Below are positions 24,103 to 29,752 of a DNA stretch of 58,274 nt, piece after piece (positions within the stretch are counted from its first letter, which is position 1; each line of letters starts with the position of its first letter). The notes below the pieces were generated by a model. It did no database searches, was not told where the DNA came from, and worked only from the letters and a program-made list of their open reading frames with translations. Source of the DNA: Thiotrichaceae bacterium (GTDB lineage Bacteria > Pseudomonadota > Gammaproteobacteria > Thiotrichales > Thiotrichaceae); assembly GCA_026989145.1 (NCBI GenBank), contig JALSJU010000074.1, positions 1 through 58,274 on the forward strand, in the 5' to 3' direction. The position numbers were made by a program, and so were the translations under genes.

Positions 24103-24840
24103 ATGGAAGAGAAGAAAGCTGTAAATATCATTTGTATGAAGTGGGGTGATAAATATGGTGCAGAATATGTTAACAAGCTATATGCAATGGTATCTCGAAA
24201 TATCACAATTCCTTTTCAGTTTGTGTGCTTTACGGATAATAAGGCAGAAATTAATCCTGTTGTGAAAACGTACCCCCTACCCAGTTTAGGGTTGCCTGAA
24301 AATATTCCTGAGCGTGGTTGGCTAAAGTTAGCAACCTTTCAAAAAAACTTGGAAGGCCTAGAGGGCACAGCACTATTTTTAGATCTTGATGTATTGGTTG
24401 TGGATAATATTGATGCATTTTTTGAGTTAGATGCAGAGTTTGCTTTGTGTTTTGATGAAAAGAAGCAGTCACAATTTATTGGTAATTCCTCAGTATATCG
24501 TTTTGAAATAGGGCAACATGCTGAAGTATTAGCCTTTTTTCTTGAAAACTTTGTTTCGATTAAGGATAAACACCGTAATGAGCAGGCTTATTTGTCGCAT
24601 CAAATGAATGCTAAGAATGTATTGAAATTTTGGCCAAAAGAATGGACGCCAAGTTTCAAATATCATTGTGTGCCAAGTTTTCCACAAAATTTTTGGCGCT
24701 CTCCATTTATTCCCAGGGGGGCAAAAATCATCCTATTTCACGGTAAGCCAGAACCTATTGATGCTATGCACGGCATTAGTGGAAAATGGTACCGGTATTT
24801 ACGTCCAGCCACTTGGATTAAGGACTATTGGAAACTTTAA
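24103..24840 (+). CDS. GT8-like glycosyltransferase
   Basis: 245 residues. Motifs VNIICMKWGDKYGAEYVNKL, FVCFTDN and the D-L-D metal-binding motif in LFLDLDVLVVDNID (D94-D96) are typical of glycogenin/LgtC-like GT-A enzymes. The late segment IILFHGKPEPIDAM matches the conserved H-G-K-P region of such proteins. It is the first gene of a four-gene plus-strand operon: the next gene begins one base after its stop. A ribosome site (AAGGGA) lies 11 bases before the ATG. Confidence 0.78.
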   Translation: MEEKKAVNIICMKWGDKYGAEYVNKLYAMVSRNITIPFQFVCFTDNKAEINPVVKTYPLPSLGLPENIPERGWLKLATFQKNLEGLEGTALFLDLDVLVVDNIDAFFELDAEFALCFDEKKQSQFIGNSSVYRFEIGQHAEVLAFFLENFVSIKDKHRNEQAYLSHQMNAKNVLKFWPKEWTPSFKYHCVPSFPQNFWRSPFIPRGAKIILFHGKPEPIDAMHGISGKWYRYLRPATWIKDYWKL

Positions 24841-24841
24841 A

Positions 24842-26800
24842 ATGAATAATAACCCATCAATTTTTCTTTTTTTCAAAAAGCTTTTTATCATCTATCTGGG
24901 GCTTATCGCTATCTTTTTTATCGGACGGCTAGGTTTGTTTTTCCTGTACTATGATCGTATTAGTCAGAGTGGAACAGCGTATGGTTGGAGTTTTCTTTAT
25001 GGCTTAAAGATGGATACGATGGTGGTATCCATGTTATTGGTAATACCTGCTACATTAATGCTTTTACTGCCAAGGCTCTTGAGTCGGGTAGGGGTAATTT
25101 TTTTACGGTTCTACTTTTTAATCGCTTTTTTACTTGCAATTTATATCGAGAATGCAACATTTCCATTTTTTGCTGAGTTTGATGTACGTCCCAATGAGTT
25201 ATTTATAAACTATTTAGAATACCCAAAGGAAGTGCTTGGTAATATTTGGGCAAGTTATAAACTTGAAATTTTAATTAGCAGCATAATGCTGTTGCTATTT
25301 GGCTGGTGGTTTTGGCGTAAATCTTCCAGCTTCTTTACTGATATTTACTCTATACCTTACTGGAAACGTCTTCTTGCGTTTATTCCAATTACGTTAATAC
25401 TCTTCGTTGGTATTCGTTCTTCTTTTGGGCATCGTCCTGCGAACATTTCAGATGCTACCTATACCAGCAGTCATTTAGTTAACGAAGTAACAAAAAACTC
25501 GTTATATGCAATTGGGTATGCGTATTATTCACAGAAGAAAACTGATGTTGCAGTATCAAAAATATATGGAAAAATGCCTGTAGAAGAAGCATTTGAACGT
25601 ATGGGTAAGTTGCTTGATCTTGATGTAACACGTTGTAATACACCTTTTGCGCGCCCAGTTACTACGCATTTTAAACAGGCTAAGCCGAAAAACTTGGTTA
25701 TTTTTATACAAGAAAGCTTAGGAGCACAATTTGTTGGTGGGCTGAATGGAGCAGAAGGAGAAAAAGGCATAACACCGAACTTAGATCAGTTAATTCAAGA
25801 AAGCATATCATTTAATCAACTGTACTCGAACGGTACGCGCAGTATTCGTGGTTTGGCAGGGCTAACAGCAGGTTTTCTATCTGTGCCAGGTAAGGGCGTT
25901 TTAAAACGTAACAAGTCTCAAAAAGATTTCTTTACTGTCGCACAATTACTTAAGCCTTATGGCTACCACAGTGTATTTATATACGGAGGAGAAAAACGTT
26001 TTGACAATATGGCATCTTGGTTTTATGGGAATGGCTTTGATGAAATTATTGATGAAGAAATGTTTATTAATCCGAAGTTTCATGGTGTTTGGGGAGTAAG
26101 TGATGAGGATTTAGTCGAGCGAGCTAACAAAGAATTTAAACAGCTATACGCGAAAAATAAGCCATTTGTATCAGTAATGTTCTCAACCACAAATCACACA
26201 CCTTTTGACTTTCCTGAAGGGCGTATTGAATTGGTTAAGGGAGTAGAGCCTCATACAGTTAAAAATGCTATCAAATTTGCCGATTATGCAATTGGTAAAT
26301 TTATCGATCAAGCTAAGAAGGAAGACTACTATAAAGATACGATATTTGTTATTGCGGCAGATCATAATGTTAGGGTTTACGGGGATGATTTATTACCTTA
26401 TACGATGTTCCGTATTCCAGGATTAATTTTAGGTGGTGGTGTGAAAGCACAAAACATAGGCCGATTAAGCACGCAAGCTGATGTACTAGCTACCTCACTT
26501 GATTTACTCGGTATTGATGATTTACATTATCCAATATTGGGACATAGTATTTTTGAAAGTCATAAAAAAAACATGTCATTAATGCAGTTTCATCAAATGT
26601 ATGGGCTTAGGGTGGGTGATGAAATTGCTATTATTCAGCCGCAAGAAAAACCAGTAACGATGAAGATAGTTAATGGTCATTTAGAAAAAGCTCCGCGTAA
26701 TCAAGAGCTAGAAAAAGATGTACTAGCGTTTGTAGTAGGACTAAATGAACTCTACCAAAAGAAACTTTATAAACCTGTTGTCACTAGCGATTGTCAATGA
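24842..26800 (+). CDS. LtaS/OpgB-like membrane phosphotransferase (sulfatase fold)
   Basis: 652 residues from the ATG at 24842; the frame is open further upstream but would run through the previous gene. The N-terminal ~195 residues hold about five membrane helices. A periplasmic alkaline-phosphatase-superfamily domain follows, with VIFIQESLG (metal ligand E291), the nucleophile threonine in SNGTRS (T332), TTNHTPFDFP, and IAADHN (D507, H508). The family includes lipoteichoic acid synthase and OpgB/MdoB, which move phosphoglycerol, or phosphoethanolamine in relatives, from phospholipids to glycans. In a Gram-negative bacterium, decoration of LPS or a periplasmic glucan is likely. Its stop overlaps the next start. 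Confidence 0.88.
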   Translation: MNNNPSIFLFFKKLFIIYLGLIAIFFIGRLGLFFLYYDRISQSGTAYGWSFLYGLKMDTMVVSMLLVIPATLMLLLPRLLSRVGVIFLRFYFLIAFLLAIYIENATFPFFAEFDVRPNELFINYLEYPKEVLGNIWASYKLEILISSIMLLLFGWWFWRKSSSFFTDIYSIPYWKRLLAFIPITLILFVGIRSSFGHRPANISDATYTSSHLVNEVTKNSLYAIGYAYYSQKKTDVAVSKIYGKMPVEEAFERMGKLLDLDVTRCNTPFARPVTTHFKQAKPKNLVIFIQESLGAQFVGGLNGAEGEKGITPNLDQLIQESISFNQLYSNGTRSIRGLAGLTAGFLSVPGKGVLKRNKSQKDFFTVAQLLKPYGYHSVFIYGGEKRFDNMASWFYGNGFDEIIDEEMFINPKFHGVWGVSDEDLVERANKEFKQLYAKNKPFVSVMFSTTNHTPFDFPEGRIELVKGVEPHTVKNAIKFADYAIGKFIDQAKKEDYYKDTIFVIAADHNVRVYGDDLLPYTMFRIPGLILGGGVKAQNIGRLSTQADVLATSLDLLGIDDLHYPILGHSIFESHKKNMSLMQFHQMYGLRVGDEIAIIQPQEKPVTMKIVNGHLEKAPRNQELEKDVLAFVVGLNELYQKKLYKPVVTSDCQ

Positions 26801-28092
26801 AGTTACCTTGGGATACGTTTTCAGATCAGCCCTACGTCATACGTGATAAAATATTAAAAAAAGAACTATACAAAAAAGGGCGCTGGGATTTAGTAAAGTT
26901 AGTCTTAACGAATATTATCATTCTACCTGCAACCCTTTTAATTTATAAGTTAGTCCCTATTAATGAGAGACGTTTTGACACTCTGAACTTTTTTGGCATT
27001 GGAATTAACCTCGATAAAAACCCAAAAGAAACACAGGCAATAATTGATGATATTGGGGTTAATAATCTGCTGATTCGAATGCCACTACATGATATCGAAA
27101 ATCTTTCAGAGTATGTTGCATTTGCAGAACAGTTCAAAAATAAAAATATATTGATAAATATATTGCAAGATCGGCGGCATATAGAAGATTTAGAACTCGC
27201 AAAACAATCAATTACTTCTATTTTTAAACAGTTTGGACATTTAACCAAACGCTTTCAAATTGGTAACGCGGTTAACCGAAAAAAGTGGGCAATCTTTTCC
27301 ATGGATGAATACATGCACTTTTACAAAGTAGCGTATGATCTTAAGAAAAAGGATTATCCAAATTTTGTATTACTTGGTGCATCAATTATTGATTTTGAAT
27401 ATTACTTTACAGCACGTACTTTATTTAACTTGGGAAGATTGAAGTATGATCAATGCAGCAGTTTACTGTATGTGGATAGACGAGGTGCGCCTGAAAATAC
27501 CCAAATGGGTTTAGATCTAAGTAATAAACTAAAGCTTTTACATGCTATGTTACGTTTAAGCCCAAAAACAGGTAACGATATAGTCATCACAGAAACGAAC
27601 TGGCCGATTACGCAAACAGCACCCTATGCGCCAACCAGCGAAAATGATTGCGTAAGTTTGGATGATCATGCAAATTTTTTAGTACGTTATTATTTGTTAG
27701 CAATAAGCTCCGGTGTGGTTAAACAAGTTTATTGGCATCAATTGATTGCACCAGGTTATGGTTTAATGGATAACAGAGGCGATAAGCTTGTAAAGTACCC
27801 TGCTTATTATGCCTTTAGATTTATGATGAGCATGTTACAAAGTGCTGATTACAAAGCTATTAGTAAAGATGGGGATATTTACCAGGTATCCTTTTTTAAA
27901 GATAAACAAAGCATTGATGTGTTCTGGTCTTTGTCTGCGGCTAGCTTAGAACAGGTGATAAATACATACTGCAAAACCAATTACTCTAATAAAAAAGTGT
28001 TCTCCAAAGAAGGTAATAAGTTAGAGCTTGCAGCTGATGACGATATTATACTTAAGGGTTCTCCCATATATGTCGTAGGGGAAAGCCTATGA
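26797..28092 (+). CDS. Membrane-anchored TIM-barrel glycosidase-like protein
   Basis: 431 residues from the ATG at 26797 (ATGA overlap with the LtaS-like gene); an upstream in-frame TTG is less likely. Residues ~35-54 are a single membrane anchor. Residues ~62-350 look like a clan GH-A (beta/alpha)8 barrel: GIGINL, LLIRMPLHD, and a candidate nucleophile E266 in VITETNWP. Where clan members carry the acid/base glutamate (pattern I-G-N-E-P-N) this protein reads IGNAVNR, with alanine at 158. A beta-rich C-terminal tail follows. I cannot name a function; a glycan-binding or unusual glycan-processing role in the periplasm is inferred from the operon. Confidence 0.6.
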   Translation: MKLPWDTFSDQPYVIRDKILKKELYKKGRWDLVKLVLTNIIILPATLLIYKLVPINERRFDTLNFFGIGINLDKNPKETQAIIDDIGVNNLLIRMPLHDIENLSEYVAFAEQFKNKNILINILQDRRHIEDLELAKQSITSIFKQFGHLTKRFQIGNAVNRKKWAIFSMDEYMHFYKVAYDLKKKDYPNFVLLGASIIDFEYYFTARTLFNLGRLKYDQCSSLLYVDRRGAPENTQMGLDLSNKLKLLHAMLRLSPKTGNDIVITETNWPITQTAPYAPTSENDCVSLDDHANFLVRYYLLAISSGVVKQVYWHQLIAPGYGLMDNRGDKLVKYPAYYAFRFMMSMLQSADYKAISKDGDIYQVSFFKDKQSIDVFWSLSAASLEQVINTYCKTNYSNKKVFSKEGNKLELAADDDIILKGSPIYVVGESL

Positions 28093-28826
28093 AAGTTGTT
28101 ATTAACTCAAAATATCAATCATTGGCGGTATTTATTGAAAACATAGAAAGCTATTTTGAAAGTTCTGAGGATATTTTATACGACCAACGAAATCTAATAA
28201 AAGGCGTGTCCTATCAGGGGCAAGATTACGTGGTTAAAAAATTTAAAATCCCCAACGTTATTAACCGTATTGTGTATCGCTACTTTCGGCCCTCTAAAGC
28301 AAAGCGCTCTTATGACTATTCATTAAAAATAGGGGAAGGTATTTGTCCAGAGCCAATTGCATATATTGAGGATAGGGTACGAGGTCTGCTAGGTAAAAGC
28401 TATTATATTTCAAGGCGTTATTCTTATGATTTTACGATTCGCCCAGTATTATTGGATAATAATTTTGAGAAAGTACTGAGAGATCAAGTTTTAACTAGCT
28501 TTGCGGACTTCACTTTTTCCCTGCATGAAAAAGGCATATTACACCGCGATTACTCCTATGGAAATATTCTCATTAAGCACCAACAAGGTCAGTTTGAATT
28601 TAATATCATTGATGTTAATCGTATGCAATTTAGGATGCTTAGCTTAAATGACCGATTAGAAAACTTTGCACGTTTATCTGCAGATGATGATGCTATGCAA
28701 GTGATAATGACACGTTATGCCAAGTTAGTTAATAAACCTGTTAATCAACTACTACCAGTAGCAAATGCCTTTCGGGATGAGTTTATGCGTAAACGTAAGC
28801 TAAAAAAGAAGCTACGGGGGCGTTAG
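28089..28826 (+). CDS. WaaP/InaA-like lipopolysaccharide kinase
   Basis: 245 residues. Kinase landmarks are a lysine pair near residue 50 (DYVVKKFKIP), the catalytic loop LHRDYSYGNILI (D154, N159) and the metal-binding FNIIDVNRMQF (D175). This fits the Kdo/heptose kinase family (WaaP, KdkA, InaA), which phosphorylates LPS-core sugars and stabilises the outer membrane. It is the last gene of the operon, overlapping the TIM-barrel gene by ATGA. The acceptor sugar is unknown. Confidence 0.82.
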   Translation: MKVVINSKYQSLAVFIENIESYFESSEDILYDQRNLIKGVSYQGQDYVVKKFKIPNVINRIVYRYFRPSKAKRSYDYSLKIGEGICPEPIAYIEDRVRGLLGKSYYISRRYSYDFTIRPVLLDNNFEKVLRDQVLTSFADFTFSLHEKGILHRDYSYGNILIKHQQGQFEFNIIDVNRMQFRMLSLNDRLENFARLSADDDAMQVIMTRYAKLVNKPVNQLLPVANAFRDEFMRKRKLKKKLRGR

Positions 28827-28924
28827 TTAACTTTCAAATATCGTGTAGAGTTCATGCTCTATTCAGCTCATGGATGCTTTAATGGTGTGCAATATTAATT
28901 CTAATAAATCCAAAGGTGCTTGCT

Positions 28925-29752
28925 ATGCTTAAAACTTTTCTCTCACTTAGCGTTGTTTCTTCGCTATTAATAATGACGACTACTTCAGCATTAACACCAG
29001 TTGCACCAAAACCACAGAAAAAAACTGCAGTGAAAAGTGTGACCAAAGTAAAAACAGCGAAAGTTTTAAACACTAAGATATACAAGAAAACTAAAGCTAA
29101 TAAAAAGCTAGCTGATAAAGGTAATGCTGGTGGTTTTGGTCTGACAGCAAAAGTAAGCACGTTAGGCATAGGTGTTGATCTTACTTACGGCATAATGGAT
29201 AAACTTAATGTACGTTTAAACCTTAATGGCGGAAGTCTAAATATTGATAATGAAATAGAAGGCATTAATTATGATGGGAAATTGAACCTGCAATCTGTAG
29301 GCGGCTTATTAGATTTCCATCCTACGGGTGGTGGTTTTAGGGTTTCTGCAGGTATTTATAATAACTCTAATAATATGGATGTTGATGCTAGCGGTATAAA
29401 CAATAGTAATGTTGAAATTGGTGGTCGTCGTTATGACTTATCGGATGCTACCTTAAACACCAAAGTTACCTTTAAAAGTACCGCTCCTTATCTTGGTTTA
29501 GGCTGGGGTAACGCTGCTGATAAAGATTCTAAATTTAGTTTAACGACAGATTTGGGTGTATTATTTCAGGGTGAGCCTAGTGCTAAATTATCAACAAAAG
29601 GTACTGTTAAGGATGTTCAAACAGCAACAGCAGTTGATGTAAGCATATTAAATGGCGAACTGGCAAAGGAAGAGGTTAAATTAAACGATGGTGATTTGAA
29701 GAAGTTTAAGCTACTCCCTGTTGTTTCTTTAGGTATGAACTACCGCTTCTAA
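28925..29752 (+). CDS. Small outer-membrane beta-barrel protein with lysine-rich N-terminal segment
   Basis: 275 residues from the ATG at 28925, which sits eight bases after AAAGG; an in-frame GTG three codons earlier overlaps the ribosome site. Signal peptide about residues 1-22. Residues ~31-61 are very lysine-rich, and then alternating polar/hydrophobic strands (GFGLTAKVSTLGIGVDLTYG and onwards) end in VVSLGMNYRF with a terminal Phe, the outer-membrane assembly signature. The glycine-rich mid-part LLDFHPTGGGFRVSAGIY resembles OmpW-like or YaiO-like barrels. The function is not recognised. It stands alone, convergent to lptG. Confidence 0.75.
   Translation: MLKTFLSLSVVSSLLIMTTTSALTPVAPKPQKKTAVKSVTKVKTAKVLNTKIYKKTKANKKLADKGNAGGFGLTAKVSTLGIGVDLTYGIMDKLNVRLNLNGGSLNIDNEIEGINYDGKLNLQSVGGLLDFHPTGGGFRVSAGIYNNSNNMDVDASGINNSNVEIGGRRYDLSDATLNTKVTFKSTAPYLGLGWGNAADKDSKFSLTTDLGVLFQGEPSAKLSTKGTVKDVQTATAVDVSILNGELAKEEVKLNDGDLKKFKLLPVVSLGMNYRF

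Follow-up and report, generated by a model that had tools for sequence, protein, structure and literature searches.

A predicted GH39-like barrel protein without its acid/base glutamate, linked or fused to a Kdo/WaaP-type LPS core kinase

The strength of the outer membrane and its permeability to drugs depend on LPS core kinases, and how these recognize a membrane-bound glycan is, to our knowledge, poorly known. In animals, the Klotho proteins are clan GH-A barrels with incomplete catalytic pairs that act as partners of another protein. Among the bacterial systems closest to the locus described here, WaaP-type kinases meet the lipid A-core on the cytoplasmic face of the membrane (PMC6147952), and PslG of Pseudomonas aeruginosa has Glu165 as its acid/base and Glu276 as its nucleophile (PMC11912335). 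Basic residues placed before a hydrophobic helix, together with a mid-helix Pro, have been proposed as features of re-entrant membrane helices (PMC6133551).

We analyzed a stretch of 58,274 nucleotides from a Thiotrichaceae bacterium (hereafter, the window), in which a sequence-only reading had pointed to a clan GH-A-like barrel protein with a nucleophile Glu and no acid/base Glu. The open reading frame at 26797-28092 of the forward strand contains 431 codons free of stops and the opposite strand contains many stops, indicating that the gene is real. At 26797-26800, an ATGA joins the stop codon of the upstream sulfatase-fold gene to the ATG of the barrel gene, and the stop codon of the latter overlaps the kinase ATG in the same manner at 28089-28092, so that the proposed translational coupling holds on each side. 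The residues that had been cited are also exact, since IGNAVNR starts at residue 155 (giving A158) and ITETNWP at residue 264 (giving E266). Both neighbors had been named correctly: the upstream gene has a sulfatase domain (PF00884, 129 bits), and the downstream gene encodes a Kdo/WaaP kinase (PF06293, 28.8 bits versus a cut-off of 21.3) whose K50, H152, D154, N159 and D175 are invariant, indicating that its catalytic residues are intact. Positions of the features are listed in Table 1.

Table 1. Positions of the barrel gene, its functional features and its coupled neighbors in the window.
Feature	Position	Strand	Basis
GH39-like barrel protein without acid/base Glu, 431 aa	26797..28092	+	Translation; AF2 model; VIA fold comparison
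Barrel (~residues 60-348) and C-terminal beta domain (351-431)	within 26797..28092	+	AF2 model
N-terminal motif WDxxSDQP, residues 5-12	26809..26832	+	Alignments; kept in stand-alone homologues, missing from kinase fusions
Hydrophobic helix 29-52 with conserved central Pro44 and basic residues before it; predicted membrane anchor, possibly re-entrant	26881..26952	+	DSSP of model; hydropathy
Ala158 codon, acid/base position	27268..27270	+	Ala/Thr in 53/53 homologues
N160, R161, K163, W164 codons after beta 4	27274..27288	+	N160, R161, W164 invariant
D199-F200-E201 codons, end of beta 5	27391..27399	+	D199, E201 invariant in all 53
R228 codon after beta 6	27478..27480	+	Invariant
Glu266 codon, nucleophile position	27592..27594	+	Glu in 26/26 stand-alone; Tyr/Ala/Asn in 27/27 fusions
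Kdo/WaaP-type LPS core kinase, 245 aa, constant neighbor	28089..28826	+	PF06293; Lys50, H152, D154, N159, D175 conserved
LtaS/OpgB-like sulfatase-fold phosphotransferase, coupled upstream, recurrent non-constant partner	24842..26800	+	PF00884, ATGA overlap

The AlphaFold2 model of the barrel protein, built on 25 homologues, had a pLDDT of 91.8 and a pTM of 0.92. The top Foldseek match of this model was the GH39 enzyme 5jvk (E 3.7e-17), and VIA-align gave Z scores of 31.7 to 5jvk and 30.1 to PslG (9g17), with an rmsd of 3.0-3.2 over 345-350 residues; the next group followed at Z ~25. All eight strands of a GH39-type (beta/alpha)8 barrel are in place and are followed by a C-terminal beta domain, so that the GH-A barrel suspected earlier can be described more specifically as GH39-like. 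Strand beta 4 covers residues 152-155 and beta 7 residues 262-266; because A158 follows the former and E266 ends the latter, they are taken to occupy the acid/base and nucleophile positions of clan GH-A. In profile-profile alignments with GH39-domain proteins (99.1% probability), A158 aligns with the Glu of WNEW, and E266 with that of FTEFSWP. The GH39 reference proteins (L089 and L092) score over the PF01229 cut-off. GH113 was detected weakly for 4 of the 25 members (best E 0.012) and was set aside because GH39 leads both fold comparisons.

On the other hand, the barrel protein has no match in Pfam at E 1, the PF01229 threshold included, and neither NCBIfam (noise only) nor PHROGs provided a family for it. 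It had no significant match by sequence among PDB sequences, where a profile of the 25 members reached 5jvk at only E 0.037. Judged from sequence and model, the barrel protein is thus a degenerate GH39 barrel, and its family is new and undescribed but made of known parts, in agreement with one of the three options in the sequence-only reading.

Searches of whole genomes and of named contigs provided 53 non-redundant homologues from Gammaproteobacteria and Campylobacterota (Arcobacter, Sulfurimonas), whereas a plasmid collection contained none. Their tree, from which the misaligned GH39 row L090 was left out, has two branches. Most members of the stand-alone branch (26 rows) have a hydrophobic helix and, at the N-terminus, the motif WDxxSDQP, and proteins of the kinase-fused branch (27 rows; ~740-811 aa) have the barrel first and then the kinase. 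The residue after beta 4, where GH39 enzymes have the general acid/base Glu, is Ala or Thr in all 53 homologues and never Glu in either branch; since the substitution is fixed throughout the non-redundant set, it is not a matter of chance. The nucleophile Glu ending beta 7 is present in the window protein and in every stand-alone homologue (26/26), whereas it is replaced by Tyr, Ala or Asn in all 27 fusions, and no member carrying both catalytic Glu was found in the barrel family. By parsimony, these patterns suggest that the acid/base was lost before the branches split and the nucleophile later in the fused branch, although this order is tentative because the tree has long branches. Retention of Glu266 in all 26 stand-alone proteins suggests that it still has some role there, possibly in chemistry.

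Two observations were made alongside. In the tree, the Campylobacterales barrel L016:7992-9203 is placed within the branch of the Thiotrichaceae (the wider fork has 99/97 support), and this placement suggests a transfer from one phylum to the other. In L089, L090 and L091 (genomes G664, G581 and G585, ~6 Mb), an O-antigen-ligase-type membrane protein (Wzy_C) continues in frame into a GH39 domain with both catalytic Glu intact (the GH39 domain was seen in L089), forming an unusual ligase-hydrolase fusion.

The gene neighborhoods show that the kinase is recurrently adjacent to the barrel or fused to it. In the taxonomic order to which the window belongs, the barrel occurs in 14 of 63 genomes and the kinase in 17 of 63, and the kinase lies directly downstream of the barrel in 14/14 cases. 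Among the 46 genomes that are at least 90% complete, the same 10 carry both genes, and the kinase-only genomes (G402, G406 and G407) are 58-84% complete. Note that this co-occurrence was counted among related genomes without kinship correction. As judged from the sequences, the barrel-kinase fusion in other lineages (27 non-redundant proteins from three family groups, forming one clade) is stronger and independent evidence of partnership. The model of a fused protein was well determined (pLDDT 89.7, pTM 0.89); one part of it matches PslG and another WaaP (6dfl, E 8e-8), and GH39 leads for the fused form too. A search of the literature available to us found no relevant report of a GH domain fused to an LPS/Kdo kinase, nor of a pseudoglycosidase in work on LPS. 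Six stand-alone homologues from two other family groups adjoin trmB or rpiA, in genomes that have no kinase of the partner type but do hold other Kdo/WaaP-type kinases. As a separate observation, near the barrel-kinase fusion, L032:12902-15127 and L038:12851-15088 encode a protein of 741-745 aa that carries two or more Kdo/WaaP-type kinase domains and adjoins GT4, epimerase and YrbL-like genes, so that there are several LPS-type kinases per locus.

The upstream gene scored below the NCBIfam equivalog cut-offs for LtaS, OpgB and phosphoglycerol transferase I (best 88 bits versus 572). Among the loci mapped, this LtaS-like gene is next to the barrel in the window, L012, L015 and L046, and lies upstream of the barrel-kinase fusion in L107. 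We rejected it as the defining partner as it is absent from most loci, whereas every barrel-bearing genome in the window's taxonomic order has the kinase; the LtaS-like gene is a recurrent but optional neighbor. Hence, of the LtaS-kinase operon described earlier, both coupled neighbors are real, but only the kinase is the constant partner. Across loci, the neighbors include HldE, HldD, a GT9 heptosyltransferase, an O-antigen ligase, GT25, GT90 and a SIS-domain (GmhA-like) isomerase, and the cluster in the window, which includes two GT25 genes, lies between clpX and LptG/LptF/lipid A acyltransferase genes. The setting is therefore LPS inner-core/heptose assembly. The earlier suggestion that an undescribed envelope modification most likely takes place at this operon accordingly goes further than the evidence; phosphorylation of the LPS core is itself known. 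Two further proteins of the window have no Pfam match at the limits used. One (24103-24840, 245 aa) looks by eye like a GT8-type glycosyltransferase and precedes the LtaS-like gene in L012 as well; the other (28916-29752, 278 aa) has a signal-like N-terminus and a final Phe, giving it the look of an outer-membrane beta-barrel, and follows the kinase in the window and in L012.

We then considered which part of the barrel is conserved. All 53 homologues share N160, R161, W164, D199, E201, R228, P232, K244, W269 and Y298 without exception, and most of these residues come after the C-terminal ends of strands 4 to 7, on what used to be the active-site face. Mean loop entropy was 1.35 bits on this face and 2.37 bits on the opposite face, a difference reached in 0 of 20,000 shuffles. 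Selection thus acts on the pocket even in proteins that have lost both catalytic Glu, a pattern typical of a binding site or of different chemistry; from this conservation, we infer that it is a ligand-binding site.

The single membrane anchor proposed earlier corresponds to a real hydrophobic helix (residues 29-52), but this may not be a simple membrane span. Its hydropathy is 2.07 in the window protein but 0.74-1.53 among the trmB/rpiA homologues and only 0.17 in L040, where the helix has five charges; thus, the helix grades from hydrophobic to amphipathic across homologues and has a conserved Pro. Flanking basic residues in stand-alone proteins mostly number 5-9 before the helix and 1-4 after it, so that a PglC-like arrangement, with basic residues before a single hydrophobic helix and a helix-breaking Pro within it, is present. 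In ten kinase fusions examined at full length, there was no candidate for a membrane span (best hydropathy 1.0-1.3, inside the barrel), which argues for a cytoplasmic rather than a periplasmic barrel. The stand-alone barrel therefore probably lies at the inner membrane on its cytoplasmic side, a placement that calls for caution because a naive reading of the positive-inside rule gives the periplasm.

On balance, we favor, with some reservation, the explanation that the degenerate GH39 barrel is a partner subunit of a WaaP/Kdo-type LPS core kinase, binding the core for the kinase or stabilizing it. The former cleft (N160, R161, K163, D199, E201, R228 and W269) would bind nascent LPS at its anionic sugar core and leave the core uncleaved, and the barrel would present the bound core to the kinase or steady the kinase itself. 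In stand-alone forms, the N-terminal helix would keep the barrel-kinase pair on the cytoplasmic side of the inner membrane, the site of core phosphorylation; in fused forms, the kinase would be on the same chain and the helix dispensed with. A glycan-binding scaffold is the best supported of the options raised by the sequence-only reading, with the kinase as its partner. Against a partner role stand the retention of Glu266 in all stand-alone proteins, the six homologues beside trmB or rpiA that lack a partner-type kinase, and the positive-inside rule, which in its naive form would put the stand-alone barrel in the periplasm.

The retained Glu266 would be explained if the stand-alone barrel were an active enzyme transferring sugar in LPS core assembly, which we regard as doubtful. 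Glycosidases without an acid/base can use activated donors, as do engineered thioglycoligases and myrosinase; Glu266 could thus attack a donor with a good leaving group (a sugar phosphate or nucleotide sugar) that needs no acid catalyst, or the invariant D199/E201 on beta 5 could serve as a relocated acid/base. The location of the gene among core glycosyltransferases would fit as well. However, the kinase-fused sister branch has the same pocket without Glu266, which argues for a shared function independent of this residue, and members with both Glu were not found. A bolder version, which we also consider improbable, is that the rebuilt GH39 fold is a new LPS-core-handling module whose N160/R161/D199/E201/R228 site is catalytic in the stand-alone branch (Glu266-based sugar or phosphosugar transfer without an acid), working with the LPS kinase, part of the family having merged into one bifunctional protein.

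The preponderance of basic residues before the hydrophobic helix, the LtaS-like gene recurring at the loci named above and the periplasmic mature form of PslG would all suit a bitopic, periplasmic protein that binds glycan as a partner of the LtaS-like phosphotransferase, acting on LPS or periplasmic glycan after export. We think this decidedly unlikely: an ATP-dependent kinase fused to the barrel without a membrane span indicates that the barrel domain is cytoplasmic in the fusions, the LtaS-like gene is missing from most loci whereas the kinase is constant, and the helix is too polar to span the membrane in divergent stand-alone members. Constant linkage and fusion could also mean that the barrel has no glycan ligand and binds the kinase alone, which would require it for folding or regulation, much as P. 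aeruginosa WaaP is stabilized by a bound acyl-ACP partner (PMC6147952). This appears very unlikely, however, since conservation is strongest in the old active-site loops and not on the opposite face, which points to a ligand, and the genomes of some stand-alone members lack such a kinase.

If the partner-subunit explanation is true, a pseudoglycosidase subunit, separate or fused depending on the lineage, would explain how substrate is presented to the kinase and give bacteria a counterpart of Klotho and other animal pseudoglycosidases. An uncharted protein family of Gammaproteobacteria and Campylobacterota is thereby named, with clear test residues, and the pairing of a GH39-type barrel with an LPS kinase is a surprising one for specialists in LPS and in glycosidases.

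Compared with known systems, PslG (5bx9, 4zn2 and 9g17) and the GH39 enzyme 5jvk share with the window protein the same barrel and C-terminal beta domain (Z 30-32), and Glu266 lies at their nucleophile position; PslG is, moreover, likewise tied to surface polysaccharide assembly. The window protein differs from them in having Ala/Thr at the acid/base position (Glu165 in PslG) and other invariant residues in the cleft, in not being recognized by PF01229, and in its linkage or fusion to a kinase. Klotho proteins appear in the fold-comparison list of the barrel model, but they are animal hormone co-receptors of GH1 fold unrelated to LPS, so that the likeness is one of analogy only. PglC, a monotopic phosphoglycosyl transferase, has a re-entrant helix that shares with the window protein the basic residues before a hydrophobic helix and, in the middle of that helix, a conserved Pro preceded by a branched or aromatic residue; in contrast, the window protein has no Ser-Pro dyad as such, the catalytic domain of PglC is unrelated to it and its topology is predicted only. 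Finally, the neighboring or fused kinase domain shares the catalytic Lys, HxD, Asn and Asp of WaaP/Kdo kinases (PF06293, 6dfl), whereas the WaaP of 6dfl, unlike the system in the window, has no GH-like domain and is stabilized by acyl-ACP.
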